The notes under the pieces: model-generated
The model's input: the letters and a program-made list of their open reading frames with translations, nothing else
What the model was told of the DNA's origin: nothing
The model's database searches: none
Translations under genes and position numbers: made by a program
In this document: piece by piece, positions 1,401 through 21,918 of the stretch
How the letters are laid out: the number at the start of each line of letters is the position of its first letter
Numbering within the stretch: the first letter of the stretch is position 1
DNA from: Gammaproteobacteria bacterium
Lineage (GTDB): Bacteria > Pseudomonadota > Gammaproteobacteria > Eutrophobiales > Eutrophobiaceae
Direction: 5' to 3'
DNA: 32,711 nucleotides
Assembly (NCBI GenBank): GCA_026709915.1
Contig: JAPORZ010000116.1
Location: 1 to 32,711, forward strand

Positions 1401-1666
1401 TAAAAAAGTGAAATTTGCATGAATTTATTAAGTTTTAAGGTAAATAAAAATAACGGTTGCATAAAAGGCCACGCTGATATAAGCTGACCACCTCATGGAG
1501 CTGGCAAGGCAGCGCCGGCCCGTGATCTTACCGAGGGTGATGCCCTGGAAATCCCGTATTGAACGACAACGCGGTTTGTCGGGTGGCGGTGTTATGGGAT
1601 GACCTTGTGGAATGTGGCATTTCTTACCTTGAACCTGTCCCTGATATCCTCAGCGAACGCCTCGTG

Positions 1667-1691
1667 CGCCGTCAAACCCGGCGGCTTTTTT
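1667..1691 (+). terminator. Terminator-like hairpin in the sga leader
   Basis: Stem CGCCG (1667-1671) pairs with CGGCG (1679-1683) over a 7-base loop; GC and then six T follow (1686-1691). It ends 23 bases before the sga start codon and just upstream of its ribosome binding site. In that position it could attenuate the carbon cluster. The stem is short, so it could be chance. Confidence 0.35.
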
Positions 1692-1714
1692 ATACCGATA
1701 CCTGGAGAGTGACT

Positions 1715-2893
1715 ATGCCCGGTCGAAATTTTTTACACATACCCGGTCCCACGCTTGTGCCCCAGCGCATTCGAAATGCCATGGCAATAGAGCAGGAGGA
1801 TATGCGCGCGGCGGATTTCCCTGAGTTTACCTTGCCGTTGTTCAACGACCTGAAACAGATCTTCAAGACCGAAACGGGGCGGGTTTTCATCTTTCCCTCA
1901 TCCGGCACTGGCGCCTGGGAGGCCGCTATCAGCAATACCCTGTCAGCAGGTGACAAGGTACTGATGTCGCACTTCGGCCAGTTCAGCCAGTTGTGGGTGG
2001 ATATGTGCCGGCGCCATGGCCTGGATGTGAACGCCATCGAGATGGATTGGGGTGAAGGTGTGCCGGTGACGCGCTATGCCGAGATTCTCAAGGCTGATAC
2101 CAACAAGGAGATTAAGGCGGTATTTGCTACGCATAATGAAACGGCAACCGGGGTCAGGAGCGACATTGCCGGCGTGCGCAAAGCCCTGGACGAAGCCGAC
2201 CACCCGGCCCTGCTGTACGTGGATGCGGTGAGTTCTCTGGCCAGCCTGGACTTCCGCATGGATGAGTGGGGTGTGGACCTGGCGGTATCCGGCTCACAGA
2301 AAGGTTTTATGCTACCCACCGGGCTCGGTATCCTCGGCGTCAGTGAAAAAGCCCTGGCCGCCCGTGCCGATGCGACCCTGCCGCGCACCTATTTCTCGTT
2401 CGACGACATGATTGCCGCAAATGACAACGGCTATTTCCCCTATACCCCCAATACCATCTATCTTCGGGGGTTGCGAGAAGCAGTCAATATGCTGCTGGAG
2501 GAAGGGCTGGAGAATGTGTTTGCCCGTCATACCCGCTTGGCCATCGCAGTGCGTAAGGCGGTGGCGGCCTGGGGCCTGTCCCTGGTTGCGAAGGATGAGA
2601 ACTGGTATTCCGATACAGTCAGCGCAGTGTGGATGCCGGCAGGCTTCGACGGCAATGAGGTCGCGCGCCACAGCTACCGGTACTACAATGTAGCCCTGTC
2701 CATCAGCCTCGGCAAGATCGCCGGGCAGGCATTCCGCATTGGCCATCTGGGTGATTTGAACGAGGTGATGGTACTGACCCCGTTGAACGCGGCCGAGATG
2801 TCCATGAAAGATCTGGGTATCAATATTGAACTCGGTAGCGGCGTGGCAGCCGCCCAGGAATACCTGCGCAGCACCCGTCAGGCGCGGTTCTGA
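1715..2893 (+). CDS. sga: Serine-glyoxylate aminotransferase
   Basis: A class V PLP-dependent aminotransferase of 392 residues, the usual length. In the serine cycle it moves the amino group of serine to glyoxylate, giving hydroxypyruvate and glycine. Seen: the N-terminus GRNFLHIPGPTLVP typical of the AGXT/SGA group; a phosphate-binding segment PSSGTGAWEA near 61-70; D150-A-V-S, which should hold the PLP ring; and the lysine that binds PLP, K196, in SGSQKG. The ATG at 1715 is chosen because GGAGAG lies 5 bases upstream and the protein then begins as its relatives do. A longer in-frame start (TTG at 1559) is rejected. The stop overlaps the next start by one base (TGATG), indicating translational coupling to malyl-CoA lyase. 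Alanine-glyoxylate activity is the main alternative, but the neighbours favour serine. Confidence 0.93.
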   Translation: MPGRNFLHIPGPTLVPQRIRNAMAIEQEDMRAADFPEFTLPLFNDLKQIFKTETGRVFIFPSSGTGAWEAAISNTLSAGDKVLMSHFGQFSQLWVDMCRRHGLDVNAIEMDWGEGVPVTRYAEILKADTNKEIKAVFATHNETATGVRSDIAGVRKALDEADHPALLYVDAVSSLASLDFRMDEWGVDLAVSGSQKGFMLPTGLGILGVSEKALAARADATLPRTYFSFDDMIAANDNGYFPYTPNTIYLRGLREAVNMLLEEGLENVFARHTRLAIAVRKAVAAWGLSLVAKDENWYSDTVSAVWMPAGFDGNEVARHSYRYYNVALSISLGKIAGQAFRIGHLGDLNEVMVLTPLNAAEMSMKDLGINIELGSGVAAAQEYLRSTRQARF

Positions 2894-3852
2894 TGAGTTT
2901 TACCCGGTACCCGTCGGCGCCCACCCGCTTGCAGCGCAGCGAACTGGCGGTGCCCGGCTCCAACCCCGGCATGTTCGAGAAGGCCGCCGGCTGCGCCGCG
3001 GATTACATCTTTCTGGATTGTGAGGACGCAGTCATCCCCGATGATAAGCCCCAGGCCCGCAAGAACATCATCGAGGCTCTGAACGATATCGACTGGCAGG
3101 GCAAAACCATGTCAGTGCGCATTAATGGCCTGGACACCCATTACATGTACCGGGATGTGGTGGACATCGTCGAACAGGCCGGGCCGCGGCTCGACACCGT
3201 ACTCATTCCTAAGGCCGGCACGGCTGCCGACATATATATGGTGGACTGCCTGTTGACGCAGATTGAAGAGGCTATGGGGCTGGAAAAGAAAATCGGCATA
3301 GAGTGCCTGATTGAAACCGCGCTGGGCGGTGCCAACGTCATGGCCATCGCACAATCCTCCCCGCGTCTCGAAGCCTTGCACTTCGGCGTGGCAGACTACG
3401 CCGCCAGCATGCGTGCGCGTACCGTGAACATCGGCGGGCTGAATCCCGACTACCAGTGCGACGGCGCCCTGGGCGACCAGTGGCACAGCGCCCTGGTGAA
3501 CATGGTAACAGCCTGTCGGGCCTGCGGTCTGCGCGCGATTGACGGGCCGTTTGGTGACTTCAATGACGCCGAGGGTTACCGCGCCGCGGCCCGGCGCGTG
3601 GCGGCGCTGGGGTATGAAGGCAAATGGGCGATACACCCCAACCAGATCGCATTGGCCAACGAGATCATGTCCCCGCCGGAGGCAGAGGTTACCCGCGCCC
3701 GTCGGGTACTGGAAGCCTTGCGGGAAGCCGCCCAACAGGGCAAGGGCGCGGCACAACTGGACGGCAAGATGATTGACGCCGCCTCGGAACGCATGGCAAG
3801 AAATATCGTGCGTCAGGCGGAATTGATAAGTGCGGGCGCCGGCATCCAGTAG
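2893..3852 (+). CDS. mcl: Malyl-CoA lyase (CitE-like superfamily)
   Basis: 319 residues, the normal size for L-malyl-CoA lyase/beta-methylmalyl-CoA lyase, a Mg-dependent TIM-barrel enzyme of the HpcH/HpaI and CitE superfamily. It cleaves malyl-CoA to acetyl-CoA and glyoxylate. Seen: the LDCEDAV strand at 41-47, R76 in SVRING (substrate binding), E141 in IECLIETALG and D168 in FGVADYAASM (metal ligands in the family), and the C-terminal KWAIHPNQ segment that closes the active site. The gene overlaps sga by one base and precedes the genes that make its substrate, which supports malyl-CoA over citramalyl-CoA or citrate. From sequence alone it is not possible to exclude use with beta-methylmalyl-CoA as well. 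Confidence 0.92.
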   Translation: MSFTRYPSAPTRLQRSELAVPGSNPGMFEKAAGCAADYIFLDCEDAVIPDDKPQARKNIIEALNDIDWQGKTMSVRINGLDTHYMYRDVVDIVEQAGPRLDTVLIPKAGTAADIYMVDCLLTQIEEAMGLEKKIGIECLIETALGGANVMAIAQSSPRLEALHFGVADYAASMRARTVNIGGLNPDYQCDGALGDQWHSALVNMVTACRACGLRAIDGPFGDFNDAEGYRAAARRVAALGYEGKWAIHPNQIALANEIMSPPEAEVTRARRVLEALREAAQQGKGAAQLDGKMIDAASERMARNIVRQAELISAGAGIQ

Positions 3853-3896
3853 CTTAACAGGCGCGACAGGCGCATTTTACGATGAGGTAACAACCA

Positions 3897-5084
3897 ATGG
3901 AAATTCACGAATATCAGGCCAAAGAGATACTGTCCGATTTCGGTGTGCCGATCCCGCGCGGCGGTCTGGCATACAGCCCGGAGCAGGCGGTGTATCGCTG
4001 CCATGAAATCGGTGGTGACGCCTGGGTCGTCAAGGCACAGATCCACTCGGGCGGCCGCGGCAAGGCCGGCGGCATCAGGTTCTGTCAGGACGATGAGCAG
4101 ATCTGGCAGGCTGCCGACGAACTGCTGGGGCGCCGCTTGATCACCAACCAGACCGGCAGCGCCGGCAAGATCATCCACCGGTTGTACGTGGAAGAAGCCA
4201 GTGACATCGCCAACGAGTATTACATCGGCTTCGTACTGGACCGGCAGAAGGAACGGATTGCCGTGGTGGCCTCGTCGGAAGGCGGTGTAGAGATTGAGGA
4301 AATTGCCCACGAACGGCCGGAATCGCTGATTCGCGTCGTGGTTGAGCCGGCGGTGGGCATGCAACCGTTCCAAGCGCGCGAGATCGCCTTCAAACTGGGC
4401 ATCGACAAGGCCTTGATCAGTCAGGCCATTACCACCTTGCTGGGCTGCTACCGCGCGTTTCGCGATCTCGATGCCACCATGGTGGAGATCAACCCGCTGG
4501 TAGTGACCGCAGATAACCATCTGGTGGCGCTGGATGCGAAAATGGGGTTTGATGACAACGCCCTGTTCCGGCGCCCGAACATTTCCGAATTGCGCGATAA
4601 ATCCCAGGAGGACCCACGCGAAATGAAGGCCGCCGACCGTGGCCTCAGTTACGTGGGGCTGGAAGGCAATATCGGCTGCATCATCAACGGCGCCGGTCTG
4701 GCCATGGCGACCATGGACATGATCAAGCACGCCGGCGGCGAGCCGGCCAACTTCCTGGACATTGGCGGTGGCGCTTCGCCGGAACGCGTGGCAAAGGCCA
4801 TTAACCTGGTGCTCAGCGACAGGAACGTCAGGGCGATACTGGTGAATATTTTTGCCGGCATCAACCGTTGCGACTGGGTGGCAGAAGGCATCGTGCAGGC
4901 GGTAAGCAAGATAGAGGTCAACCTGCCCTTCATCGTCAGGCTGTCCGGCACCAATGTGGAGGAGGGCAAGGAGATATTGCGCAACAGCGAGTTGCCCATC
5001 ATCATGGCGGACACCTTGCAGGAGGCCGCAGACAATGCGGTCGCTGCCTGGCAGGACTATGAGCGCAACCAGGGAGCACAATAA
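3897..5084 (+). CDS. mtkA: Malate-CoA ligase (malate thiokinase) beta subunit
   Basis: 395 residues, homologous to the beta subunit of succinyl-CoA synthetase. With MtkB it makes malyl-CoA from malate, ATP and CoA. Seen: the N-terminal HEYQAKEIL start of the ATP-grasp domain, the nucleotide-binding [16 protein letters not shown] at about 44-59, metal-binding VEINPL near 199, and the CoA-ligase domain with FLDIGGGAS at 286-294 and a C-terminal VNIFAGI. AGGT lies 8 bases before the ATG. Its stop overlaps the mtkB start (TAATG). Distinguishing malate from succinate use rests on context: it sits between mcl and hprA, not beside 2-oxoglutarate dehydrogenase genes. Confidence 0.9.
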
Positions 5085-5971
5085 TGGCAATCCTGATAAA
5101 CAAAAACTCGAAAGTCATCGTGCAGGGCTTTACCGGCCAGATCGGGACGTTTCATTCCCGAGACATGATCAATTACGGCACCAACATCGTTGGCGGCGTC
5201 ACCCCGGGCAAGGGTGGCGTCACTCACCTGGAGCGGCCGGTGTTCGACACGGTGAAAGACGCGGTGACCGAGACCGGCGCCGACAGCAGCATCATCTTCA
5301 TTCCGCCGCCGTTTGCCGCAGATGGCATTATGGAAGCGGCCGACGCCGGCATAAAATACTGTGTGTGTATCACCGACGGCATCCCCGCACACGACATGAT
5401 TCGGGTAAAACGCTACATGCGCCGCTACCGTGTGGAAGATAAAATGGTGCTGACCGGACCCAACTGCGCCGGCACCATCAGCCCCGGCAAGGCGATGCTG
5501 GGCATCATGCCGGGTCATATTTATATCCCTGGCAGGGTAGGGGTGATCGGCCGCTCTGGCACCCTGGGCTACGAAGCAGCCTCACAGATGAAGGCCGAGG
5601 GTATCGGCGTATCTACCAGTGTTGGTATTGGCGGCGACCCCATTAACGGCAGCTCGTTCAAAGACCATTTGACACGGTTTGAACAGGATCCGGAAACTGA
5701 TGCCGTAGTAATGATAGGCGAGATCGGCGGGCCGCAGGAGGCCGAGGCCGCGGAGTTTTACCGTGATAATATGAGCAAGCCTGTGATCGGATACATCGCC
5801 GGGCTGACCGCGCCCAAGGGTAAACGCATGGGACACGCCGGCGCCATTATTTCCGCGTTCGGCGAGAGCGCCGCGGAAAAGGTGGAAATTCTGCAGGAAT
5901 GCGGCGTCACCATTGTGCCCAGGCCGTCCGAGTTTGGCAGTACGGTCAAGGCCGCGCTGGCGTCATTGTAA
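5084..5971 (+). CDS. mtkB: Malate-CoA ligase (malate thiokinase) alpha subunit
   Basis: 295 residues, homologous to succinyl-CoA synthetase alpha; partner of MtkA. Seen: an N-terminal CoA-binding Rossmann domain beginning VIVQGFTGQIGTFH, PNCAGTISPG near 126-135, the ligase domain GRSGTLGYE at about 156-164, and the histidine expected to be phosphorylated during catalysis, H251 in MGHAGAI. The length is normal. Translation is coupled to mtkA by a one-base overlap. A plain succinyl-CoA synthetase is the alternative, but linkage to mcl, sga and ppc is the usual serine-cycle arrangement. Confidence 0.9.
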   Translation: MAILINKNSKVIVQGFTGQIGTFHSRDMINYGTNIVGGVTPGKGGVTHLERPVFDTVKDAVTETGADSSIIFIPPPFAADGIMEAADAGIKYCVCITDGIPAHDMIRVKRYMRRYRVEDKMVLTGPNCAGTISPGKAMLGIMPGHIYIPGRVGVIGRSGTLGYEAASQMKAEGIGVSTSVGIGGDPINGSSFKDHLTRFEQDPETDAVVMIGEIGGPQEAEAAEFYRDNMSKPVIGYIAGLTAPKGKRMGHAGAIISAFGESAAEKVEILQECGVTIVPRPSEFGSTVKAALASL

Positions 5972-5994
5972 ATGTATGAATTAGGGAAATGGTT

Positions 5995-6966
5995 ATGAAC
6001 AGACCCAAAGTAATAGTCAGCCGTAAATGGCCGGAAGAAGTCGAAGGCCGGATGCAGGAACTCTTCGACGTACAGTTGAACAAGACGGATACGCCCCTGA
6101 CGGCTGTGCAAATGCAGGCGGCGCTGCAAGGCGCGGATGCGTTCTGCCCCACCGTATCCGATAACGTCAGCGCCGAGGTGTTGTCTGTGGACAACCTGCA
6201 CGCGCGCATTATCGGCAGTTATGGCGTCGGTTTTAACCACATCGACCTGGAGGCGGCAAAATCCCGTGGTCTGGTAGTGACCAATACCCCGCAGGTGCTG
6301 ACCGACTGCACTGCCGATCTTGCCATGACCCTGTTGCTGATGACGGCGCGGCGCGCCGGGGAGGGCGAACGGCATGTGCGTAACAAGGAATGGCGCGGCT
6401 GGCGGCCGACCCACATGATGGGCGCCAAGGTCACCGGCAAGACTCTGGGCTTGATCGGGATGGGCCGCATCGCCCGGGCCATGGCGCAACGGGCATTCCA
6501 CGGTTTCGGCATGAAGATTATCTTTACCGACCCTTATCCGCCACCGGACGAGGTGGTCAACGCCTTACAGGCGCAGGCGCGCGCCTCCATTGATGAGGTG
6601 CTGCAAGAGGCGGACTTTGTCTCGTTGCACTGTCCCGGCGGCAAGGAAACCTGGCATTTGCTCAACGCCGAACGTCTGGCGCTGATGAAGCCCGGCGCAT
6701 TCCTGATCAACAGCGCGCGCGGTGATGTCATCGACCAGGCGGCCTTGATTGAGGCGCTGGATCAAGGTGTCATTGCCGGCGCCGGTCTGGACGTATATGA
6801 AGGCGAGCCGGCAGTGCCGGAGCAACTTCTGTCCATGCAGAACGTGGTGTTGCTGCCGCACCTTGGCAGCGCCTCCAGAGAAACCCGGGTCGCCATGGGC
6901 ATGCGGGTGGTTGACAACCTGCAAGCATTTTTCAAGGGTGAGGCCCCGCGCGATCGCGTTGCCTGA
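5995..6966 (+). CDS. hprA: Hydroxypyruvate/glyoxylate reductase (D-2-hydroxyacid dehydrogenase)
   Basis: 323 residues from the chosen ATG. It belongs to the NAD(P)-dependent D-2-hydroxyacid dehydrogenases and in this cluster most likely reduces hydroxypyruvate to D-glycerate. Seen: the dinucleotide fold LGLIGMGRIARAM (about 151-163, with Ala for the third Gly of GxGxxG), catalytic R242 in NSARGD, E271 in DVYEGEP and H289 in LPHLGSAS. An ATG six bases upstream (5989) is in frame, but AGGGA at 5983-5987 is better spaced for 5995. The domain pattern is nearer to glyoxylate reductases of the GyaR/GhrB type than to the shortest HprA proteins, so the substrate preference between glyoxylate and hydroxypyruvate is open. 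Confidence 0.85.
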   Translation: MNRPKVIVSRKWPEEVEGRMQELFDVQLNKTDTPLTAVQMQAALQGADAFCPTVSDNVSAEVLSVDNLHARIIGSYGVGFNHIDLEAAKSRGLVVTNTPQVLTDCTADLAMTLLLMTARRAGEGERHVRNKEWRGWRPTHMMGAKVTGKTLGLIGMGRIARAMAQRAFHGFGMKIIFTDPYPPPDEVVNALQAQARASIDEVLQEADFVSLHCPGGKETWHLLNAERLALMKPGAFLINSARGDVIDQAALIEALDQGVIAGAGLDVYEGEPAVPEQLLSMQNVVLLPHLGSASRETRVAMGMRVVDNLQAFFKGEAPRDRVA

Positions 6967-7121
6967 GGTTTTCCTGGCGTGCGCGTTGTCGGCCGGAGGC
7001 CGCGCCGGCATGTTGTCAGCCGGGAGATTGGCCGCTATCCGGCTACAAGGAGGCAAACGGACGGCGCGGGCAGGGCTTGTAAACCAACACGGAAGCAAGG
7101 CAATCTTCCCGGCCTGTAACA

Positions 7122-9848
7122 ATGTCCTCCTTTGATTTCCCACAACAGTTATCAGCCGCCGCCATGGACTCCGCGGCAGCCAGCTACGCCGGCAACCTCA
7201 TAGCACTGCTGGCGCAGCAGTTGCGCCAGGTTATCAGCCAGAGAAAACCCGAGGTGCTGCCGGTTTTTGACGGCAGACAACCCCTGCCCAGGGATGACAA
7301 CGAGTTGTTACAGGCCGGCCTGCAAGCCTGGGGTATCTGGTTTCAACTGCTCAATGTCGCTGAGGAAAATACCGCCATGCGTCGCCGCCGGGTTACGGAA
7401 AGCAGCCAGGGCTTGGAGCCTGTTTCCGGCACCTTCGCCAACGTCATCGCACAGGCCGCAGAGCTGGGTCTATCCCACCGGGAAGTCCAGGATTTGCTGA
7501 ATAATGTGCAAGTCACGCCCACCATCACCGCGCATCCCACCGAAGCGAAGCGGGTCACCGTATTGCAGATCCACCGGCGCATCTACGTTATCCTGTATCG
7601 TCTGGAAGCCACGCGCTGGACTCCGCGCGAACGCGAGTCCCTGGAGCAACAACTGCGCAACGAGATCGACCTGCTCTGGTTGACCGGTGAGCTACGCCTG
7701 GAAAAGCCTTCCGTGCAGCAGGAAATCAGGTGGGGCCTGCATTTCTTTGAACAAACCCTGTATCGGCGCGTGCCGGAGACCCTGGAACGGCTGGACCTGG
7801 CCCTGGCCGGCCACTATCCCGGCGCCACCTTCACGGTGCCGCCGCTGTTCCGCTTTGGCACCTGGATAGGCGGCGACCGGGACGGCAATCCCTTCGTGAG
7901 CAATGCCGTGACTCGTGAAGCCCTGCTCATGAACAGACAGGCCATATTGCAGCATTACCATATCCGGTTGGAAGAATTGTTTCTCAAACTCAGCGTTTCC
8001 ATTCATGCAATAAGCCCTGCCAAGACCTTTTTGCAACACCTGGACAGCTTGCTGGATGCAAGCGGGCGCAGAAAAAAACTGGAACAACGCAACCCCGGCG
8101 AGATCTTCCGTCAGTTTGTCTTTTGCCTGCAGGAAAAAATAAGGAATACTGAAAAGAAAAGCACTCTCAGCAGCTTTGCCTACGATTCTGCCGACCGCTT
8201 TATCCAGGATTTGACAACACTGGAACTGGGTTTGCAACAGGCAGACTGCGGGCAGCTCGCACAGGCCCACGTCACGCCGCTGCGGCGTCAGGCCGAGTCC
8301 TTCCGGTTCTGTAGCGCGCGCCTGGACCTCAGGCAAAATTCCACGATTATCACCGGCACGTTGCAGGATATCTGGCGCCAGCGTCACCAGCAGGGAACCC
8401 CACCTGAGGCAAATTCCGGCGACTGGCTGGAATGGATACAGGCAGAACTGGCTACGCCATTTGAGCAGCCGCTACACTTTTCTTTCAGTGACCGGCACAG
8501 CGCCTCAACATTCGGCTTGTTCCAGCTGCTGGCAGAGACCCGCCAGACCCTGGATCGGGATGCCATAGGCGGCTTCATCCTGAGCATGACCCGCTCGGTG
8601 GCCGATGTGCTGGGCGTGTATCTGCTGGCCAAATATACCGGCGTATTTATCGACAGCCAGGGGGTGGAAAGTTCTCCCCTGCCGGTGATACCGCTGTTCG
8701 AGACCATCGCAGACCTGCGCGCCGCGCCGCGCATCATGCACACCTTGTTGCAGACCCCGGTAGTGCGGCGCAGTTTGAGAGAGCAGGGCGGCATCCAGGA
8801 AGTCATGATCGGTTATTCGGATTCCAATAAGGACGGCGGCTTTCTTACGGCCAATTTTGAGCTGAGCCGGGCGCAGCTGGCGCTGACCCGGGTCGGCGTC
8901 AAGTGCAAGACGCCGATTGTCTTCTTTCACGGGCGCGGCGGCTCGGTCAGCCGCGGCGGCGCCCCCACCGGCGCGGCCATTGCCGCGCAACCGGCGGGCA
9001 CCGTAAACGGTAAATTGCGTATTACCGAGCAGGGTGAAGTTGTGTCCTCCCGGTTTGCCAACCACGGTACCGCGCAGTACGAACTGGAGCTGCTGGCGGC
9101 CAGTGTCATGGAACACACCCTTAATTCAATACGCACGCAGCAGTCGGCGCCGGAACCGGAATTTGAACAGGCCTTAGAGGCCCTGTCCAGCCTGGCTTAC
9201 ACGGCGTACCGGCGCCTGGTGGAGGCAACCGGTCTGGTGGATTACTACCATGCGGCCAGCCCGGTACAGGAACTTGGCAAACTGCGTATCGGCTCGCGCC
9301 CGGCTCGGCGTTTCGGCGCCGGCACGCTGGACGACCTGCGCGCCATTCCCTGGGTGTTCGCTTGGACGCAGAATCGTCATCACGTTCCGACCTGGTACGG
9401 ACTGGGCAGCGCAGTGCAGAATTTCGTGAGGGTGCGCGGGCCGGAAAGCGTGGCGCTGTTGCGCGACATGTATGCAAACTGGCCGTTGTTCCGGCTGGTC
9501 ATTGACGAAGTGGAAAAAGCCCTGGCTTTTGTGGACCTCGAGGTCATGCGCGGCTATGCCGGCCTGTCTGCACGGGAGGCAACCGGGGAGCAGTTCCAGA
9601 CCCGGATCACCAGCGAATATGAACGCTCCATCGAACAGGTGCTGCTGATTACCGGCGAGACGACCCTGTGCGAGCGTTTCCCCCGCTTCAGCCGGAAACT
9701 TGAACGCCGCGGCGACATCCTCAAACAGGTGGGCCTGGCCCAGGTCGAATTGCTCAAGCGCTTTCGTGCAGAAGGCAAACAATCAGACCTGATAGCGCTG
9801 CTGCTTTCCATCAACTGCGTCAGCGCCGGCCTGGGCTGGACGGGATAA
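7122..9848 (+). CDS. ppc: Phosphoenolpyruvate carboxylase
   Basis: 908 residues against 883 in E. coli. It carboxylates PEP with bicarbonate to oxaloacetate, the CO2-fixing step of the serine cycle and an anaplerotic reaction elsewhere. Seen: catalytic H138 in TAHPTEAKR, GGDRDGNP at 250-257, YSDSNKDGG at 565-573, the glycine-rich loop around H603 to P615 (FHGRGGSVSRGGAP), QNRHHVPTWYGLG near the end, and a C-terminus ending in TG. In the glycine-rich loop a serine replaces the glycine of the E. coli GRGGSIGRGG form. The gap of 155 bases from hprA contains a 12-base imperfect direct repeat (6985-6996 and 7012-7023) but no clear promoter. The upstream ribosome binding site is weak, so the exact start is less certain. 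Confidence 0.95.
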   Translation: MSSFDFPQQLSAAAMDSAAASYAGNLIALLAQQLRQVISQRKPEVLPVFDGRQPLPRDDNELLQAGLQAWGIWFQLLNVAEENTAMRRRRVTESSQGLEPVSGTFANVIAQAAELGLSHREVQDLLNNVQVTPTITAHPTEAKRVTVLQIHRRIYVILYRLEATRWTPRERESLEQQLRNEIDLLWLTGELRLEKPSVQQEIRWGLHFFEQTLYRRVPETLERLDLALAGHYPGATFTVPPLFRFGTWIGGDRDGNPFVSNAVTREALLMNRQAILQHYHIRLEELFLKLSVSIHAISPAKTFLQHLDSLLDASGRRKKLEQRNPGEIFRQFVFCLQEKIRNTEKKSTLSSFAYDSADRFIQDLTTLELGLQQADCGQLAQAHVTPLRRQAESFRFCSARLDLRQNSTIITGTLQDIWRQRHQQGTPPEANSGDWLEWIQAELATPFEQPLHFSFSDRHSASTFGLFQLLAETRQTLDRDAIGGFILSMTRSVADVLGVYLLAKYTGVFIDSQGVESSPLPVIPLFETIADLRAAPRIMHTLLQTPVVRRSLREQGGIQEVMIGYSDSNKDGGFLTANFELSRAQLALTRVGVKCKTPIVFFHGRGGSVSRGGAPTGAAIAAQPAGTVNGKLRITEQGEVVSSRFANHGTAQYELELLAASVMEHTLNSIRTQQSAPEPEFEQALEALSSLAYTAYRRLVEATGLVDYYHAASPVQELGKLRIGSRPARRFGAGTLDDLRAIPWVFAWTQNRHHVPTWYGLGSAVQNFVRVRGPESVALLRDMYANWPLFRLVIDEVEKALAFVDLEVMRGYAGLSAREATGEQFQTRITSEYERSIEQVLLITGETTLCERFPRFSRKLERRGDILKQVGLAQVELLKRFRAEGKQSDLIALLLSINCVSAGLGWTG

Positions 9849-9906
9849 TGGCTTTCATTTTTGTTGTGATTTTTCTCTGGTAGCAATTTTTTATGTGATT
9901 TTCTTC

Positions 9907-9936
9907 TTGACATCCTGATAAAAAGGGAATTATACT
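9907..9936 (+). promoter_or_regulatory. Strong sigma-70-type promoter before rpsL
   Basis: TTGACA at 9907-9912 and TATACT at 9931-9936 with an 18-base spacer, in an AT-rich stretch 58 bases after the ppc stop. It is the best-looking promoter in the window and is placed to drive the ribosomal genes. Expected transcription start is near 9943, leaving a leader of about 170 bases before rpsL. Confidence 0.75.
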
Positions 9937-9997
9937 CCCGCTTCTTTTTGGGAAGTTGCCGGGGACGGGTGTCCGACCTGCCTTTGAGGCGCCAGAA

Positions 9998-10024
9998 AAC
10001 GACCGTTATTGCGGTTGTTTTTTT
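9998..10024 (+). terminator. Attenuator-like hairpin in the rpsL leader
   Basis: AACGACCG (9998-10005) pairs with CGGTTGTT (10012-10019) over six bases with one G-T pair, and the arm runs into seven T ending at 10024. This is the form of an intrinsic terminator. It lies 55-80 bases downstream of the expected start of the rpsL promoter and about 90 bases before rpsL, so it may act as an attenuator, or end a short leader RNA. It could less likely terminate ppc transcripts. Confidence 0.5.
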
Positions 10025-10051
10025 ATTTGGAAAAGCGCCTCGCGGCGTTCC

Positions 10052-10099
10052 CCCTGTAGCGCTGCTAACCACTTATGCAACAGGGTTGATAACCACTTA
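10052..10099 (+). repeat. Leader hairpin and 10-base direct repeats before rpsL
   Basis: CCCTGT at 10052-10057 is the inverse of ACAGGG at 10080-10085; after an A-A mismatch two or three more pairs extend the stem, giving a long-loop hairpin. TAACCACTTA occurs twice, at 10066-10075 and 10090-10099, 24 bases apart, one copy in the loop and one after the stem. The function is unknown; a binding site for a ribosomal protein or an antitermination element is a guess. Confidence 0.4.
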
Positions 10100-10115
10100 C
10101 ACAGACCAAGGTGCT

Positions 10116-10490
10116 ATGACTACAATTAGTCAACTGGTGCGCAAGCCGAGAAAACGGCAGCGAGTAAAGAGCAACGTTCCGGCGCTGGACAGTTGTCCGC
10201 AGAAGCGCGGGGTGTGTACCCGCGTATATACCACGACGCCGAAAAAGCCCAACTCCGCCCTGCGTAAGGTGGCCCGGGTGCGCCTGACCAATGGTTATGA
10301 GGTAACCACCTATATCGGTGGCGAGGGGCATAACCTGCAGGAACATTCGGTCATCCTTATTCGTGGCGGCAGGGTGAAAGATCTACCGGGCGTGCGTTAC
10401 CACACGGTCAGGGGCACACTGGATACCTCAGGTGTGGCTGAGCGGCGTCAGCGTCGTTCCAAGTACGGCGCCAAGAAGCCCAAGTCGTAA
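10116..10490 (+). CDS. rpsL: 30S ribosomal protein S12
   Basis: 124 residues, identical in length to E. coli S12 and very similar throughout. It forms part of the decoding centre. The loop [14 protein letters not shown] (about 39-52) and [14 protein letters not shown] (84-97) are intact; K43 and K88, the positions usually changed in streptomycin-resistant strains, are both lysine. The frame is open upstream, but ATG 10116 gives the conserved [12 protein letters not shown] start and has AAGG five bases ahead. First gene of the str group; 20 bases separate it from rpsG, too few for the roughly 100-base S7 regulatory site found in E. coli. Confidence 0.97.
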
Positions 10491-10510
10491 CAGGAACAGA
10501 GACCAGCGTC

Positions 10511-10981
10511 ATGTCCAGAAGAAGAGAAGCCGAAAAAAGGGAGATTTTGCCGGACCCGAAATACCACAACACGGTGCTGGCGAAATTTATCAACATGGTC
10601 ATGCGCAGCGGCAAGAAGTCCATTGCCGAAAGAATCGTTTACGGCGCCCTGGACCAGATCAGCGCCAAAAAGAAGGCGGATTCTCTGGAGATATTCATAC
10701 AAGCCCTGGATAACGTAAAACCCGTTGTCGAGGTAAAATCGAGGCGTGTCGGCGGCGCTACCTACCAGATACCCATAGAAGTGCGCGCCGAACGCAGTGT
10801 GACCCTGGCGATGCGCTGGCTGGTGGATGCCTCCAAGAAGCGCGGCGAGAAGAGCATGGGCATGCGGCTGGCAGGGGAAATCATGGACGCCTCGGATAAC
10901 AAGGGAACTGCCATCAAGAAGAAAGAAGACACCCACAGAATGGCCGAAGCCAACAAGGCTTTTTCCCATTACCGCTGGTAG
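10511..10981 (+). CDS. rpsG: 30S ribosomal protein S7
   Basis: 156 residues, the common bacterial length. S7 starts assembly of the 30S head by binding the 3' major domain of 16S rRNA and contacts E-site tRNA. The N-terminus [18 protein letters not shown] and the [17 protein letters not shown] region are typical, and the C-terminal helix ends in FSHYRW. In E. coli S7 is also the translational repressor of this operon; the short upstream gap here suggests that control works differently or is absent. Confidence 0.97.
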
Positions 10982-11006
10982 GAACTAAGGAAGGAGTTAT
11001 TCAGTC

Positions 11007-13112
11007 ATGCCGCGCAGTACACCCATTGAGCGTTATCGTAATATCGGCATTATGGCCCATATTGACGCAGGCAAGACGACTACCACAGAGCGTATTCTGT
11101 ATTACACCGGCGTTTCCCACAAGATTGGCGAGGTGCACGACGGCGCCGCAACCATGGACTGGATGGAACAGGAGCAGGAACGTGGCATCACCATCACTTC
11201 CGCTGCGACCACCTGTTTCTGGAAAGGTATGGCCGGTCAATATCCGGAACATCGCATCAATATCATCGACACCCCCGGGCATGTGGACTTTACCATTGAG
11301 GTGGAGCGCTCTCTGCGGGTGCTGGATAGCGCTTGCGCGGTATTTTGCGCCGTCGGTGGGGTCGAGCCGCAATCAGAAACAGTATGGCGTCAGGCCAACA
11401 AATACCAGGTGCCAAGACTGGCCTTCGTCAACAAGATGGATCGCTCCGGGGCAGATTTCGCCAGGGTGGTGAACCAGATCCGGGAACGGCTGGGCAGCGC
11501 GCCGGTGCCGCTGCAGCTGCCGATTGGCGCGGAGGACAAATTCCGCGGCGTTGTTGACCTGATCCGCCTCAAGGCGATTTGCTGGGACGACCAGAACAAG
11601 GGTATGACCTTTGCCGAAAAAGACCTTCCGGCCGAGCTGGCGGATGCCTGTAGGCAAGCCCGTGAGCAGCTGGTGGAAGCCGCCGCAGAAGCTGATGATA
11701 CATTGATGGAACAGTACCTGGAAGAAGGTGATTTGACGGAAGCAGAGATTAGACGCGGCCTCAGGGCCAGAACCCTGGCCAACGAGATAGTGCCGGTGCT
11801 GTGCGGTTCTGCATTCAAGAACAAGGGTGTGCAGAGCATGCTCGATGCGGTCATCGACTATCTGCCCGCGCCGGTTGACGTGCCTGCGGTAAAAGGCATG
11901 CGAGCAAATGGCGCCGAGACCGAAATTACCCGGCAATCGTCCGATACCGAACCGTTCGCCGCGTTGGCCTTCAAGATAGCCACCGACCCGTTTGTCGGGT
12001 CTTTGACCTTTTTCCGGGTTTACTCCGGCGTATTGAAATCCGGTGATACGATCCTGAACTCGGTAAAAGGCAAGAAAGAACGCATCGGACGCATTTTGCA
12101 GATGCACGCCAACTCGCGCGAAGAAATAAAAGAAGTACGCGCGGGTGATATCGCCGCGGCAGTGGGCCTTAAGGATGTCACGACCGGTGATACCCTGTGT
12201 CCGGCGAATGACTCCATTATTTTAGAGCGAATGGAATTTCCCGAACCCGTCATCTCCATTGCCGTCGAGCCGAAAACCCGCCCCGACCAGGAGAAAATGG
12301 GTCTGGCGCTGGGCAAGCTGGCCCAGGAGGACCCCTCGTTCAAGGTGCATACCGACGATGAATCCGGGCAGACCATCATTTCCGGCATGGGTGAGTTGCA
12401 CCTGGAAATCATCGTCGACCGGTTGAAACGGGAGTTCAAGGTTGACGCCAATGTGGGCAAGCCCCAGGTGGCTTACCGGGAAACCATACGCAAGCCGGTA
12501 GCAAAGGCGGAAGGCAGGTTTGTGCGCCAAAGCGGTGGTCGTGGCCAGTACGGTCACGTGATACTGAAAATCGAACCGCAGGAGCCTGGTCACGGTTATG
12601 AATTTATCAACAAGATTGTCGGCGGCGCAGTGCCTAAGGACTTTATCCCGGCCGTGGACAAGGGCATACGGGAGCAGATGGAGAACGGCGTGATAGCCGG
12701 TTACCCGGTGGTGGACGTGAAAGTTACCTTGTATGACGGTTCCTACCATGAAGTTGACTCAAGCGAAATGGCCTTCAAAATAGCCGGCTCCATGGGCTTT
12801 AAGGACGGCGCCGGCCGGGCTGCCCCGGTATTGCTGGAGCCGCTTATGGAGGTGGAGGTAGTGACGCCGGAAGACTACTTGGGTTCAGTGACCGGTGATC
12901 TGAGCCGGCGTCGGGCCATGTTGTCGGAGACAGTCAGTTCGCCCGCCGGCACTATCATCAAGGCGCAAGTTCCGCTTGAGCAGATGTTCGGCTATGCCAC
13001 TGCGTTGCGGTCTGCCACCCAGGGGCGCGCCACTTACACGATGGAATTCTCCAGATATACGCCGGTTCCCTCCGGCATCTCGGATGAAATCACGAAAAAA
13101 TCGGCATCCTGA
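11007..13112 (+). CDS. fusA: Elongation factor G
   Basis: 701 residues (704 in E. coli). A translational GTPase that drives translocation and, with RRF, ribosome recycling. Seen: G1 AHIDAGKTT (17-25), the switch I region ending in RGITI (59-63), G3 DTPGH (88-92), G4 NKMD (142-145), then domains II to V, including GGRGQYGHV and the GYPVVD segment. AAGGAG lies 11-16 bases before the ATG. It is followed after only 27 bases by rpsJ, whereas tufA usually lies between them. The protein itself looks normal, so the loss of tuf has not affected fusA. Confidence 0.97.
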
Positions 13113-13139
13113 TAATCCCGGGCAGAGAGCGATAAAGTA

Positions 13140-13454
13140 ATGGCACAACAACAGGTTATAAGAATAAGGTTGAAAGCGTTCGACCACCGGCTGATTGATC
13201 AGTCGACTCGGGAAATCGTCGAGACTGCGCGCCGTACCGGCGCCCAGGTGAAGGGGCCGATTCCACTGCCGACTAAAAAAGAACGCTACACGGTACTGAT
13301 CTCTCCCCACGTCAACAAGGATGCCAGAGATCAATACGAAATCAGGACACACAAGCGCCTGGTGGACATCATCAACCCTACCGACAAGACGGTTGATGCA
13401 TTGATGAGGCTGGATCTGGCCGCCGGTGTGGACGTCCAGATAAAACTGAGTTGA
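13140..13454 (+). CDS. rpsJ: 30S ribosomal protein S10 (NusE)
   Basis: 104 residues (103 in E. coli). A component of the 30S head that also acts, with NusB, in transcription antitermination of rRNA operons. The start [19 protein letters not shown] and the block [21 protein letters not shown], in which the tRNA-contacting loop lies, match well. It normally opens the S10 operon behind a long leader through which L4 regulates; here only 27 bases separate it from fusA, so no such leader exists. Confidence 0.96.
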
Positions 13455-13483
13455 TCGGCGCGGATCGGCAACGGGGCGAGACT

Positions 13484-14125
13484 ATGGCAATCGGCATTGT
13501 GGGCAAAAAGCGAGGTATGTCCCGGGTCTTCACCGACGCCGGTCAGTCCGTGCCGGTGACGGTGATTGAAGCCATCCCCAACCGGGTTACCGCCTTGGCC
13601 ACTGCGGAGCAGCGCGGGTACAGCGCGGTGCAGGTCGCTTACGGTAGCAAGCGGCGCAACCTGATCAACAGACCGCTGGCGGGGACATTGGCCCGGGTTG
13701 GCGTCGAGGCTGCCGAGGGGCTGCATGAGTTTCGGCTCGATGGCAACGAGTTCGGTGATCTGGCAGCAGGTTCGGAAATTACGGTAAGCATTTTTGCGGC
13801 CGGACAGAAGGTGGACGTGAGCGGCAAGACCATTGGAAAAGGTTTTGCCGGCGCCATAAAACGGCATAATTTCAGCGGCCAGCGTAACAGTCATGGTAAT
13901 TCCCGCGCCCATCGGGCGCCCGGCTCGATAGGCCAGAATCAGTCCCCCGGGCGTGTTTTCCGGGGCAAGAAAATGGCCGGACACATGGGTAACGTAACAC
14001 AAACAGCGCAAAACCTTGAAGTTATCAAGGTTGATGCAGAGCGGAATCTGGTGCTGGTCAAGGGTTCCGTCCCGGGCGCGGCCGGCGGAACGCTGATCAT
14101 CCGCCCGGCGTTGAAGTCGAGCTGA
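13484..14125 (+). CDS. rplC: 50S ribosomal protein L3
   Basis: 213 residues (209 in E. coli). One of the two initiators of 50S assembly; its long loop reaches the peptidyl transferase centre. The start MAIGIVGKKRGMSRVF at ATG 13484 is conserved and preceded by GGGGCGAG; the upstream in-frame extension is rejected. The loop SHGNSRAHRAPGSIG followed by GQNQSPGRVF is intact; Q151 probably corresponds to the glutamine methylated by PrmB in E. coli. Confidence 0.96.
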   Translation: MAIGIVGKKRGMSRVFTDAGQSVPVTVIEAIPNRVTALATAEQRGYSAVQVAYGSKRRNLINRPLAGTLARVGVEAAEGLHEFRLDGNEFGDLAAGSEITVSIFAAGQKVDVSGKTIGKGFAGAIKRHNFSGQRNSHGNSRAHRAPGSIGQNQSPGRVFRGKKMAGHMGNVTQTAQNLEVIKVDAERNLVLVKGSVPGAAGGTLIIRPALKSS

Positions 14126-14141
14126 ACCCTGGAGATATACT

Positions 14142-14870
14142 GTGGAATTGGCGCTGCATAAAGCGGGGAATAAACAGACGGGACAGGTCACGGTGGCCGA
14201 CGATGTGTTTGCCGCGGAGTACAACGAGGCATTGGTGCATCAGGTATTGACCTCTTACCTGTCAACGGGCAGGTCTGCATCCCGGTCCTTGAAAAACCGC
14301 GCCGCAGTGCGCGGCGGCGGTAAAAAGCCCTGGCGTCAGAAAGGCTTGGGCCGCGCACGCGCCGGCACCACCCGCGGGCCGTTGTGGCGTGGCGGGGGCG
14401 TGACGTTCCCGAATAATGAGCGCACGTTTGCCAGAAAAATAAATAAGAAGATGTATCGCGGCGCGCTGCGCTCCATTTTCTCAGAGTTGGTGCGCCAGGA
14501 ACGGTTGTTGTGTATTGATCAGTTGATTGTCGGTGAGACGAAGACAAAGGCCGCGTTGCAGTTGCTGGCAGGGCTTGGGCTTGAGGAAGTGTTGATTATT
14601 ACCGACACCATCAGCGACGAGTTGCGCCTTGCGACGCGTAACCTGACGCGCGTAGCCGTTATCAATACCCAGGAGATTGATCCCTATTCGTTGATTGGCT
14701 TTGACCGGGTATTGATCACTGCGGGTGCGTTGGCACAGGTGGAGCAGTGGTTGTGTCGGAGCGCCGTAGATAAGGCGCCGGATGCAGCGGTAGCGACGCC
14801 TGAGGCAGAACCGAAAGGAACGGAGGTGGCGACGCCTGAAGCAGAACCGGGAGGAGCTGACGATGAATGA
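14142..14870 (+). CDS. rplD: 50S ribosomal protein L4 with a C-terminal acidic tail
   Basis: 242 residues against 201 in E. coli. Residues 1 to about 205 form a normal L4: the start MELALHKAG (GTG start), the exit-tunnel loop GGGKKPWRQKGLGRARAG around 58-75, the KMYRGAL block and a C-terminal region ending VEQWL. About 37 further residues follow, rich in Ala, Pro and Glu, with the 8-residue unit VATPEAEP present twice 12 residues apart. L4 lines the tunnel, and in E. coli it represses its own operon. The tail overlaps the ribosome binding site and first bases of rplW (8-base overlap). It may lie on the ribosome surface; its role is unknown. Confidence 0.95.
   Translation: MELALHKAGNKQTGQVTVADDVFAAEYNEALVHQVLTSYLSTGRSASRSLKNRAAVRGGGKKPWRQKGLGRARAGTTRGPLWRGGGVTFPNNERTFARKINKKMYRGALRSIFSELVRQERLLCIDQLIVGETKTKAALQLLAGLGLEEVLIITDTISDELRLATRNLTRVAVINTQEIDPYSLIGFDRVLITAGALAQVEQWLCRSAVDKAPDAAVATPEAEPKGTEVATPEAEPGGADDE
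14790..14849 (+). repeat. Tandem 24-base repeat inside rplD
   Basis: Two copies, 14790-14813 and 14826-14849, differ at two third-codon positions and begin 36 bases apart. Both read VATPEAEP in frame. The high nucleotide identity suggests a recent duplication that lengthened the L4 tail. Confidence 0.8.
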
Positions 14871-15156
14871 CGAGAAGTTAATGAAAGTGTTGCTGGCGCC
14901 GCGGGTGACGGAAAAAAGCACAACTGCCGCCGACCAGCGCCGCCAGTTCGTGTTTAAGGTTGTGCGCGACGCGAGCAAGCCCGAGATCAGGCAAGCGGTG
15001 GAGAAAATGTTTGAGGTTGAGGTTGAATCGGTGCAAGTACTGAATGTGCGTGGCAAGAATAAGATGTTCCGACGCGCCCCGGGCAAACGTCCGGATTGGA
15101 AGAAGGCCTACGTGAAGCTGAAGCCCGGCTTTGATATTGATTTCGGCGGCGCCTGA
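14863..15156 (+). CDS. rplW: 50S ribosomal protein L23
   Basis: 97 residues (100 in E. coli). It lies at the tunnel exit and is the main docking site for trigger factor and SRP. Seen: the start NDEKLMKVLLAPRVTEKS, including the glutamate of the TEK motif that in E. coli contacts trigger factor, and a loop with VRGKNKMFRRAPGKRPDWKK. The ATG at 14863 aligns with the family and lies 8 bases inside rplD; the ribosome binding site GGGAGGAG is within the L4 tail codons. Confidence 0.95.
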   Translation: MNDEKLMKVLLAPRVTEKSTTAADQRRQFVFKVVRDASKPEIRQAVEKMFEVEVESVQVLNVRGKNKMFRRAPGKRPDWKKAYVKLKPGFDIDFGGA

Positions 15157-15168
15157 GGAGTCTGAAAG

Positions 15169-15993
15169 ATGCCCTTGATTAAACCAAAACCAACCTCGCC
15201 CGGTCGCCGGGGCATGGTGAAGGTAGTCAGTCCGGACTTGCACAAAGGCAGTCCGCACAACCCGCTGGTGGAAAAACAGGGACAGAATGCGGGTCGCAAC
15301 AATCGCGGCAGGATTACCGTAAGACATAGGGGCGGCGGCGCCAAACAGCGCTACCGCATTATTGATTTCAAGCGGGACAAGGATGGGATACAGGCCCGGG
15401 TGGAGCGGATCGAATACGATCCGAATCGTACCGCCCACATAGCCTTGCTATGTTACGAGGACGGCGAGCGCCGCTATATCATTGCCCCGGCCGGCGTCAA
15501 GGCCGGCGCCCGTTTGATGTCCGGGACACGCGCCGAGATTGCGCCTGGGAATTGCCTGGCGTTGCGCAACATTCCCGTAGGCACGATCGTCCATTGCGTG
15601 GAGTTCAAGCCGGGCAAGGGCGCGCAGCTGGCGCGTAGCGCCGGCGCCAGTGTGCAACTGGTGGCGCGCGAAGGCGCTTATGCGACCCTGCGCTTGCGTT
15701 CGGGTGAAATGAGAAAGGCGCCGCTGGATTGCCGGGCCACCATCGGTGAGGTGAGCAACGTCGAACACTCGTTGCAAAAACTGGGCAAGGCCGGCGCCAA
15801 GCGCTGGCGCGGGGTTCGGCCTACGGTGCGTGGGGTTGCCATGAATCCGGTCGATCATCCGCATGGCGGTGGCGAGGGGCGTTCCTCTGGTGGGCGTCAT
15901 CCATCCACCCCCTGGGGTTATCCGACCAAAGGTTATAAAACCAGGAAGAACAAGCGCACCGACAACATGATTATTCGTAAACGGAAAAACTGA
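15169..15993 (+). CDS. rplB: 50S ribosomal protein L2
   Basis: 274 residues (273 in E. coli). A core 23S rRNA-binding protein needed for subunit joining and peptidyl transferase activity. The conserved [12 protein letters not shown] block begins at residue 226; H230 is the counterpart of E. coli H229. The start [15 protein letters not shown] and the end [17 protein letters not shown] are typical. GAGGAG precedes the ATG; the stop overlaps the rpsS start by one base. Confidence 0.97.
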
Positions 15994-16268
15994 TGCCGCG
16001 TTCGATTAAAAAAGGCCCGTTCATAGACCATCACTTGCTGAGAAAGGTCGAAGCCGCACGTCAGAATAATGACAAGCGCCCGATCAAGACCTGGTCGAGA
16101 AGGTCCATGATCATACCGGATATGGTCGGCTTGACCATGTCGGTGCATAACGGCCGCGACCATGTGCCGGTGTTTATTACCGAGAACATGGTCGGGCACA
16201 AATTGGGCGAGTTTGCTATGACCCGCACCTTCCGCGGTCATGCCGCAGACAAAAAGACTTCGAAGTAA
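15993..16268 (+). CDS. rpsS: 30S ribosomal protein S19
   Basis: 91 residues (92 in E. coli). It forms a head complex with S13 and contacts the large subunit. The start [16 protein letters not shown] and the block [21 protein letters not shown] match, with the C-terminal GHAADKK tail. Coupled to rplB by TGATG; rplV follows after 9 bases. Confidence 0.96.
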
Positions 16269-16277
16269 GAGTGTGAT

Positions 16278-16613
16278 ATGACAACTGCATGTCTTAAATA
16301 TGTGCGTATGGCGCCACAGAAAGTGCGGCTGGTTGCCGACCAGGTGCGTGGGCTGCCGGTGGATCGCGCCATAAACATTCTGACTTACAGCAACAAAAAG
16401 GCTGCCGGTATCGTCAAAAAAGTACTGGAATCGGCGATGGCAAACGCCGAGCACAACGACGCCGCCGATATAGACGAGCTGAAAATCAGCGCCATCACCG
16501 TGGACCAGGGGGCCAAGCACAAGCGCTTGCGTACCCGGGCCAGGGGGCGCGCCGACCGGATTTTCAAACGCACCTGCCACCTGAATATCACGGTCACAGA
16601 GACGACAGAGTAA
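16278..16613 (+). CDS. rplV: 50S ribosomal protein L22
   Basis: 111 residues (110 in E. coli). It binds all domains of 23S rRNA, and its hairpin lines the exit tunnel near the macrolide site. Seen: [16 protein letters not shown], the [13 protein letters not shown] helix and the beta-hairpin region [16 protein letters not shown]. No deletion is evident in the hairpin tip. Confidence 0.96.
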
Positions 16614-16619
16614 TACGCC

Positions 16620-17291
16620 ATGGGACAGAAAGTACATCCGACGGGAATACGTATCGGTATCATCAAGGATTGGACATCAACCTGGTATGCCGATACCAAA
16701 CACTATGCCGAATATTTGAATACAGACCTGAAGGTGCGTGAATTTTTGAGAAAAAAGCTGGCCAATGCTTCGGTCAGCCGGATCCAGATTGAGCGCCCGC
16801 CCAATGAAATCAAGGTGATCATCCACAGCGCCAGACCGGGTATTGTTATTGGTAAGAAAGGCGAAGACATCGAACGTCTGAGCCAGGAAGTTTCCAGCAT
16901 GATGGGCGTCAGGGCCAAGGTCAGCGTGCAGGAAATCAGGAAGCCCGAGCTCGACGCAAATCTGGTGGCAGAAAACGTGGCCCAGCAAATTGAACGCAAG
17001 ATCATGTTCCGGCGCGCCATGAAGCGGGCGGTAACCAATACCATGCGCCTAGGCGCGCTGGGTATAAAAATCAACGTCAGCGGCCGTTTGAACGGTGCTG
17101 AGATCGCCCGCTCCGAATGGTATCGGGAAGGCCGGGTGCCCTTGCATACCTTGCGCGCAGACATCGATTATGGCACTGCCAACTCGAATACAACTTATGG
17201 CGTCATCGGCGTGAAGGTCTGGATCTTCAAGGGCGAGGTGTTTAATGTCAATGACCGCACTGAGGACGAGGCGCCAGTGAGCGGGGCATAA
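16620..17291 (+). CDS. rpsC: 30S ribosomal protein S3
   Basis: 223 residues (233 in E. coli, slightly shorter tail). It forms the mRNA entry channel with S4 and S5 and has helicase activity. Seen: the start [18 protein letters not shown], a type II KH domain with the loop [14 protein letters not shown] (about 74-87), the C-terminal domain [20 protein letters not shown] and the [21 protein letters not shown] block. Six bases after rplV and four before rplP. Confidence 0.97.
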
Positions 17292-17295
17292 ATCG

Positions 17296-17709
17296 ATGTT
17301 GCAACCGAAACGAACCAAATTCAGGAAGCAGAGCAAGGGCAGGAACCGCGGGCTGGCCAACAACGGCAACAAGGTCAGTTTCGGTGAATTCGGCTTGAAG
17401 GCAACGACCCGGGGACGCATTACCGCACGTCAAATAGAAGCTGCTCGCAGGACGATCACCCGCAAGGTCAAGCGCGGCGGCAAGGTCTGGATTCGCATTT
17501 TTCCTGACAAGCCCATTACCACGAAGCCGCTGGAAGTGCGGCAGGGCAAGGGCAAGGGCAACGTCGAGTACTGGGTTTCCGTGATCCAGCCAGGCAAGAT
17601 GTTGTACGAAATTGAAGGAGTGCCGGAAGAGCTGGCGCGAGACGCATTCAAGCTCGCTGCGGCAAAGTTACCGGTCAAGACCGTATTCGTGGGCAGGACG
17701 ATTTTGTGA
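17296..17709 (+). CDS. rplP: 50S ribosomal protein L16
   Basis: 137 residues (136 in E. coli). It organises the A-site side of the 50S and is added late in assembly. The start [19 protein letters not shown] and the block [18 protein letters not shown] are typical, as is GKGNVEYWV. Its stop overlaps the rpmC start (TGATG). Confidence 0.97.
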
Positions 17710-17906
17710 TGAAGGCCGCGGAACTGAGAACCAGAAAACCCGCTGAGCTGCAGGCACAGCTGGTGGAGTTGCTGCGCGAGCAGTTCAACCTGCGCATGCA
17801 GAAAGGCTCCGGCCAGCTTGGCAACCCGGGTCGCTTCAAGCTGCTGCGCCGGGAAATTGCCAGGATTAAGACGGTACTAAGCGAGAAGGCGAAACAAGAT
17901 GGGTGA
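17709..17906 (+). CDS. rpmC: 50S ribosomal protein L29
   Basis: 65 residues (63 in E. coli). A two-helix protein at the tunnel exit beside L23. Seen: [21 protein letters not shown] and the second-helix motif [19 protein letters not shown]. The ATG at 17709 is chosen over the GTG three bases earlier because it gives the usual TGATG coupling to rplP. The end overlaps rpsQ by 8 bases. Confidence 0.95.
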
Positions 17907-18165
17907 ATCTGCCAAAACAGTCAGGTCCCTGACCGGGACCGTGGTGAGCAACAAGATGGACAAGTCGATTGCGGTCACGATCCAGCGTACCGTAAAGCAT
18001 CCGCTATACGGCAAATATATCCGGCGCACCACCAAGTTGCTTGCCCATGATGAAAACAACGAGTGCAATATAGGCGATACGGTGATTATCGAAGCATCCC
18101 GGCCTGTTTCGAAGAACAAGGCCTGGCGCTTGCGCAGTGTTGTCAGCAAAGCCCAGAACGTGTGA
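17899..18165 (+). CDS. rpsQ: 30S ribosomal protein S17
   Basis: 88 residues (84 in E. coli). A primary binder of the 5' domain of 16S rRNA with an OB fold. Seen: [20 protein letters not shown], then [19 protein letters not shown] and the [20 protein letters not shown] block. It begins 8 bases inside rpmC. Confidence 0.96.
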
Positions 18166-18187
18166 AGAGAGCGTCCGGAGCAGAACA

Positions 18188-18556
18188 ATGATACAGATGC
18201 AGACAGTACTGGGCGCCGCAGACAACAGTGGCGCGCGACGTCTCTTGTGTGTGAAAGTCCTGGGTGGTTCGAAGCGACGTTATGCAGGAATTGGCGATGT
18301 GATAAAAGTCAGTGTCAAGGAAGCCATTCCCAGAAGCAAGGTCAAAAAGGGCGAGCTTTACAACGCAGTGGTGGTGCGCACCAGAAAAGGGGTGAGGCGG
18401 CCGGATGGTTCCCTGATTCGCTTCGACAGCAACGCCGCAGTGCTGCTCAATAACCAGTTACAACCCATCGGCACCCGGATCTTCGGCCCGGTTACCCGTG
18501 AACTCAGGAGCGAGAATTTTATGAAAATAGTCTCTCTCGCCCCCGAGGTGCTATAG
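18188..18556 (+). CDS. rplN: 50S ribosomal protein L14
   Basis: 122 residues (123 in E. coli). It forms intersubunit bridges and is the site where the silencing factor RsfS binds in other bacteria. The start [20 protein letters not shown] at ATG 18188 is conserved, with GGAG upstream; an in-frame upstream extension is rejected. The end [15 protein letters not shown] is typical. Confidence 0.97.
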
Positions 18557-18570
18557 CTGCGGCGCCGCTC

Positions 18571-19430: not shown

Positions 19431-19445
19431 CGGAGCACAATAGTT

Positions 19446-19751: not shown

Positions 19752-19791
19752 GTGACGCGCATTATGAGCAAGAGCTACGAGCAAGACTGAT

Positions 19792-20187: not shown

Positions 20188-20205
20188 GGTAGGGCGGAAT
20201 AAGTT

Positions 20206-20739: not shown

Positions 20740-20753
20740 CCCGGTTGATTGTT

Positions 20754-21107: not shown

Positions 21108-21121
21108 TGAGGCTCTGAACA

Positions 21122-21153: not shown

Positions 21154-21179
21154 CCGGATCGCGAGGAGACAAAAGTAAT

Positions 21180-21917: not shown

Positions 21918-21918
21918 T

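Follow-up and report, generated by a model that had tools for sequence, protein, structure and literature searches.

A terminator-like hairpin close behind the rpsL promoter: a probable lineage-specific attenuator ahead of a gammaproteobacterial ribosomal superoperon

Attenuators upstream of rpsL have been proposed in distant species, and the accessible part of the survey describing them reports antiterminator alternatives in each rpsL-leader consensus and no global common feature (Naville & Gautheret 2010, PMC2965389); this paper was the only return of a literature search by leader name. Regarding the Rfam families, RF01773 matches three Pseudomonas loci (L084, L091 and L100) among the seven named loci that were given. 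Its first two stems overlie the −35 and −10 elements in these loci, where they may be non-transcribed, and its third hairpin, which carries a U-tract, lies just behind the promoter. In Candidatus Pelagibacter ubique, an rpsL motif folding into a three-stem junction is located between rpoC and rpsL, as the leader of a fused ribosomal superoperon, and is described in the available sections of the report as found only there and in marine metagenomes (PMC2704228). In E. coli the same operon is controlled by S7, whose target, as far as the accessible part of the source describes it, lies in the rpsL-rpsG gap and acts on translation (PMC10931766). Shorter rpsL transcripts have also been reported by a 2023 3'-end study of stationary-phase enteropathogenic E. 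coli, the portion at hand not naming the leader as the place of these ends.

The window analyzed here, a stretch of 32,711 nt, belongs to a 2.6 Mb draft genome assigned to the Eutrophobiaceae. Like the superoperon of Candidatus Pelagibacter ubique, its run of ribosomal genes (rpsL-rpsG-fusA-rpsJ ... rpoA-rplQ, about thirty genes, from rpsL at 10116 to 26759) is preceded by an rpsL leader. The gene before rpsL is ppc (7122-9848), and the interval between the two holds a promoter, the remnant of a first hairpin (hairpin 1), a second hairpin (hairpin 2) with seven T, a pairing with a long loop and a 10-nt repeat in two copies (Table 1). ppc closes a gene group including a class V aminotransferase, an HpcH/HpaI lyase, two CoA-ligase subunits and a 2-hydroxyacid dehydrogenase, which we take to resemble serine-cycle genes. 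The str operon has been relocated within the genus (window 1559-9848; L258; L259): it follows ppc of this serine-cycle-like cluster in the window (genome G000), a PP2C/FHA pair, with the PP2C-like gene next to rpsL, in G002, and rpoC in G001, G004 and G006. Elsewhere in the window, tuf is missing between fusA and rpsJ, as in G001, and is present at this place in G004 of the same genus (loci: window 13112-13140, L279 and L280 2808-3998); two genes like the large and small subunits of a ring-hydroxylating dioxygenase, with scores below the curated family cut-offs, directly follow rplQ (26665-28519); and a tmRNA gene with the tag DEKYNYALAA lies on the minus strand (32151-32507).

Table 1. Features of the rpsL leader and of the first gene of the superoperon, in window positions.
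Feature	Position	Strand	Observation
Sigma-70-type promoter TTGACA-18-TATACT	9907..9936	+	11 of 12 consensus positions
Discriminator CCCGC (G+C-rich), then a pyrimidine-rich start region	9937..9946	+	class-wide position counts resemble TCCGCnTCTTT
Hairpin 1, decayed local form of the promoter-proximal hairpin of family and class	9950..9982	+	no stabler than shuffles
Hairpin 2 and T7, probable intrinsic terminator/attenuator	9996..10024	+	z −5.95; paired in 98% of 50 cells, five genus members
Long-loop hairpin CCCTGT/ACAGGG, weak	10052..10085	+	z −1.39; shuffle-level frequency; arms retained solely in L002 and L003
TAACCACTTA repeat, copy 1	10066..10075	+	exact 10-nt repeat; not retained in nearest relatives
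TAACCACTTA repeat, copy 2	10090..10099	+	exact 10-nt repeat
rpsL (S12), opening the superoperon	10116..10490	+	Pfam PF00164

A previous reading of the window, made from its letters alone (hereafter the sequence-only reading), had placed a near-consensus promoter ahead of rpsL. This is borne out, and the promoter agrees with the consensus at 11 or 12 of 12 positions in each of five genus members. At the scale of the class, 140 genomes yielded 126 with rpsL and, once L163 had been dropped as too short, 125 loci; in 115 of these, a promoter agreeing with the consensus at 10 or more of 12 positions precedes rpsL, as against 2.2% of 625 shuffles. Transcription of the window leader would begin near 9943-9946. 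G+C-rich discriminators, such as the one found here, are regarded as pointers to stringent control. Several other candidate features of the leader were rejected. The start region CTCTTTGACA is boxA-like, a likeness judged too weak for boxA/NusB antitermination; among the 111 class leaders that reach this promoter threshold and span at least 45 nt, boxA matches of 9 of 11 occur in one and of 8 of 11 in eight (mononucleotide shuffle means of 0.1 and 1.1, respectively). An open frame from 9948 could in principle lengthen rpsL at its N-terminus, but this was discarded because the leader lengths in the five genus members (179, 199, 203, 228 and 165 nt) do not preserve the frame. A leader peptide ATGCAACAGGGTTRA (MQQG-stop), present in three genus members, was discarded as well, since it sits in the arm of the hairpin and lacks a clear ribosome site.

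The hairpin with a seven-T run announced behind this promoter is likewise present, as a terminator-like hairpin and T-tract between the promoter and rpsL. Hairpin 2 pairs AAAACGACCG with CGGTTGTTTT across 6 nt (9996-10021, 10 pairs), the seven T occupying 10018-10024, and its fragment folds at −15.3 kcal/mol, a stability equaled by none of 200 shuffles; the stretch taken for L023 was excluded from the set of folds. Hairpin 2 was not picked up by a simple terminator scan, probably owing to the overlap of stem and T tract. In the genus sample (seven genomes including the window's own, five of them with a matching rpsL), hairpin 2 is found at a matching distance in all five members read, being interrupted by a bulge in L004. 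The covariation alignment that the sequence-only reading had proposed for both hairpins thus yields conserved pairing of hairpin 2 within the genus, but negligible covariation: a single pair is doubly changed, as many as in 91 of 500 shuffles, and two of the five sequences, L002 and L003, hardly differ from each other. By BLAST, G001 and G002 match bases 1-92 of the leader query, G001 also 104-158, and G006 1-158, no such match being returned for G004; towards its 3' end the leader is different in G002 and G004. No conserved antiterminator was noticed in the course of these comparisons, and the minimum-energy fold of the whole leader retains hairpin 2. A stem GAGGCGC/GCGCCTC around hairpin 2 was also rejected, its sequence not being conserved and similar short pairings in relatives being recognized by eye only. 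As for the second, long-loop hairpin and the two repeats, their letters are there, but their support is weak or they are confined to this genome. The window leader has one 6-bp long-loop pairing where shuffles have 0.91 on average, and this hairpin is not conserved in relatives beyond L002 and L003. A repeat as long as TAACCACTTA arises in 1.5% of 3000 dinucleotide shuffles, and its first copy is not retained in the nearest relatives.

Hairpin 1, whose position (9950-9982) was absent from the features listed by the sequence-only reading, is best understood from the window's family. Across 38 family leaders (35 distinct rows), it consists of 11 pairs, the first of them some 10-13 nt downstream of the −10 box. 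All 11 pairs are changed on both sides, in 62 such cells as compared with 15.5 in column shuffles (none of 500 as high), and 91.4% of cells are paired, a proportion falling to 33-45% when one arm is slid. The window's own copy has four mismatched pairs in the family register and has lost its T-tract. Under one uniform rule, a terminator-like hairpin lies within the first 110 nt of 29 of the 38 family leaders, compared with 4.25 in shuffles, the nine others being L009, L010, L013, L019, L022, L030, L147, L149 and L255. Among these, L009, from another genus, has a different extended stem followed by T7, with a loop too large for the rule. L004 combines a perfect hairpin 1, followed by TTATTTT, with hairpin 2, and looks like an intermediate because both hairpins are present. 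The forms seen in L004 and L009 suggest that the stop signal is retained as its form changes, and we infer that hairpin 2 has replaced the ancestral hairpin 1 in the window's genus.

The same layout extends to much of the class. Directly behind the promoter, a strict hairpin is present in 74 of the 111 class leaders (shuffle mean 16.8), and a strict hairpin plus T-tract in 56 (shuffle mean 1.9); the window is among the 37 leaders without a strict hairpin. A frequent form in the class is GACAGGCCGG...CCGGCCTGTC, then GTTTnTTTT. A model of the promoter-proximal hairpin trained on the window's family only (R1) matched the leader, with an E-value of 0.01 or lower, in 45 of the 90 loci taken from other families and in three of the other 34 (L241, L263 and L276), the searches of the 90 and of the 34 having been run on databases of differing sizes, with E-values that are roughly calibrated; among 11 named loci in the second search, it gave 0.006 for Arenimonas (L089) and only 0.7-0.8 for Pseudomonas (L084 and L100). 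R1 found no match in Kosakonia and Citrobacter (L070 and L071), whose leaders have a smaller hairpin, then TCGTTTTATTA. The window's hairpin 1 scores 23.3 bits against R1, a value obtained with a copy that was in the training set, and the window lacks the typical R1 arrangement, in which a hairpin with a T-tract behind it begins some 10-15 nt downstream of the −10 box: its stem is mismatched, the T-tract is lost and hairpin 2 is there instead. Regarding described families, the covariance-model search suggested earlier returned no Rfam family for the window leader at gathering, and RF01773 in particular has no window match at gathering (70 bits), nor at E up to 10 within 9800-10200. The third hairpin of RF01773 stands at the place of hairpin 1, which relates the window leader to RF01773 by position, but by score the window is not a member. 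In the rpsL-leader attenuators already described (PMC2965389; Rfam RF01773 in Pseudomonas), hairpin 1 corresponds to the portion next to the promoter.

With a probability of roughly two in three, we propose that the strong promoter, with its G+C-rich discriminator, and the promoter-proximal intrinsic terminator fused to it constitute a lineage-specific rpsL-leader attenuator, with partial termination at hairpin 2. RNA polymerase starting near 9943-9946 would reach hairpin 2 and its U-tract some 80 nt later, where some transcripts would end, the rest continuing into the approximately thirty ribosomal genes. Termination at this site, and its partial character, are predicted from the arrangement; the leader would most likely lower expression via premature termination, and it may release a short RNA of about 80 nt. 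Like the leaders surveyed in 2010, this one has a terminator-like hairpin and T-tract between promoter and rpsL; no antiterminator was noticed in the comparisons made here, in contrast to the alternatives reported in the accessible part of that survey (PMC2965389), and the promoter-plus-hairpin layout is common across the class.

It is unlikely, by comparison, that the hairpins serve to terminate the upstream gene (rpoBC, here ppc) and stand behind the str promoter by chance. The upstream gene is rpoC in most relatives, and no other terminator was seen in the window between the ppc stop and the promoter, as such a role would predict. However, within a single genus the promoter and leader, with hairpin 2, accompany str behind each of three upstream genes (rpoC, ppc and the PP2C gene); as they stay constant behind different genes, the terminator therefore belongs to the str operon. 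Furthermore, rpoC of G000 ends on another contig, without rpsL, beside a convergent ketopantoate reductase-like gene, and any terminator located downstream of the str promoter would necessarily act on str transcripts as well.

An equally improbable function for a hairpin at the 5' end would be mainly to shield the mRNA from decay, without terminating transcription. The ancestral hairpin, beginning almost at the 5' end, would suit this role, but protection does not need the T-tracts that follow the stems well above chance in the class leaders, and the stable hairpin of the window is the one with T7, about 50 nt inside the transcript.

Control by S7 had been another element of the sequence-only reading, which noted a 20-base gap between rpsL and rpsG and suggested the leader as a replacement control element. 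The gap is indeed 20 nt, against 97 nt for Kosakonia and 95 nt for Citrobacter, and the window lacks the extended intercistronic region of an E. coli-type S7 target. Yet short gaps are the rule in the family (20-79 nt in loci with both genes whole), including in members whose leaders have a quite different 3' half, and no S7-like site emerged from the analysis. What stands of the earlier proposal is the attenuator-like arrangement, kept at the level of genus and family and across much of the class with a hairpin within about 90 nt of the promoter; the replacement of a lost S7 control is not supported. A mimicry of the S7 site of 16S rRNA was also set aside, being absent from L031 and, in L004 and L002, a likeness seen by eye only. 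In three sister genera, a 32-pair RNA domain occupies the 3' half of the rpsL leader (L005, L006, L007, L008, L010, L018 and L142-L150). Fifteen of its 32 pairs are changed on both sides (43 cells, compared with 15.1 in shuffles), no Rfam family matches it at gathering in eight family loci, and its model (R2) finds two of 274 genomes in the class, both from sister genera. It is a candidate ribosomal protein leader. Leaders ahead of rpsL thus vary in kind, and so far nothing ties that of the window to S7. Least probable of all is that the window's leader binds a ribosomal protein (S7, S12 or another) in place of intercistronic S7 control: the short gap, the structured rpoC-rpsL leader described, in the available text, in Candidatus Pelagibacter ubique, also with fused operons (PMC2704228), and the covarying domain in the same leader of sister genera are compatible with it, but this domain was not found in the window or its genus (no R2 match in 26 sources, the window and 25 other loci), the long-loop hairpin is unsupported and absent in L031, and the resemblance to 16S helix 43 was judged by eye only.

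Finally, beyond the lineage-specific attenuator, a broader reading can be put forward tentatively, and we consider it rather less probable than its contrary: the promoter and its self-terminator might form a portable str control cassette across Gammaproteobacteria, in which a stop within the first 40-90 nt would be selected, the hairpin repeatedly replaced (hairpin 1, hairpin 2, extended stem) and read-through into the superoperon regulated. While rpsL attenuators were already known as a kind, what is added here is a layout shared across the class, where the 2010 survey, in its accessible part, found no common feature (PMC2965389). A common promoter-plus-hairpin layout, with turnover of the terminator within a single genus and travel with the operon, would offer a testable shared design for ribosomal protein control, including in genomes whose rpsL-rpsG gap is almost too short for E. 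coli-type control by S7.
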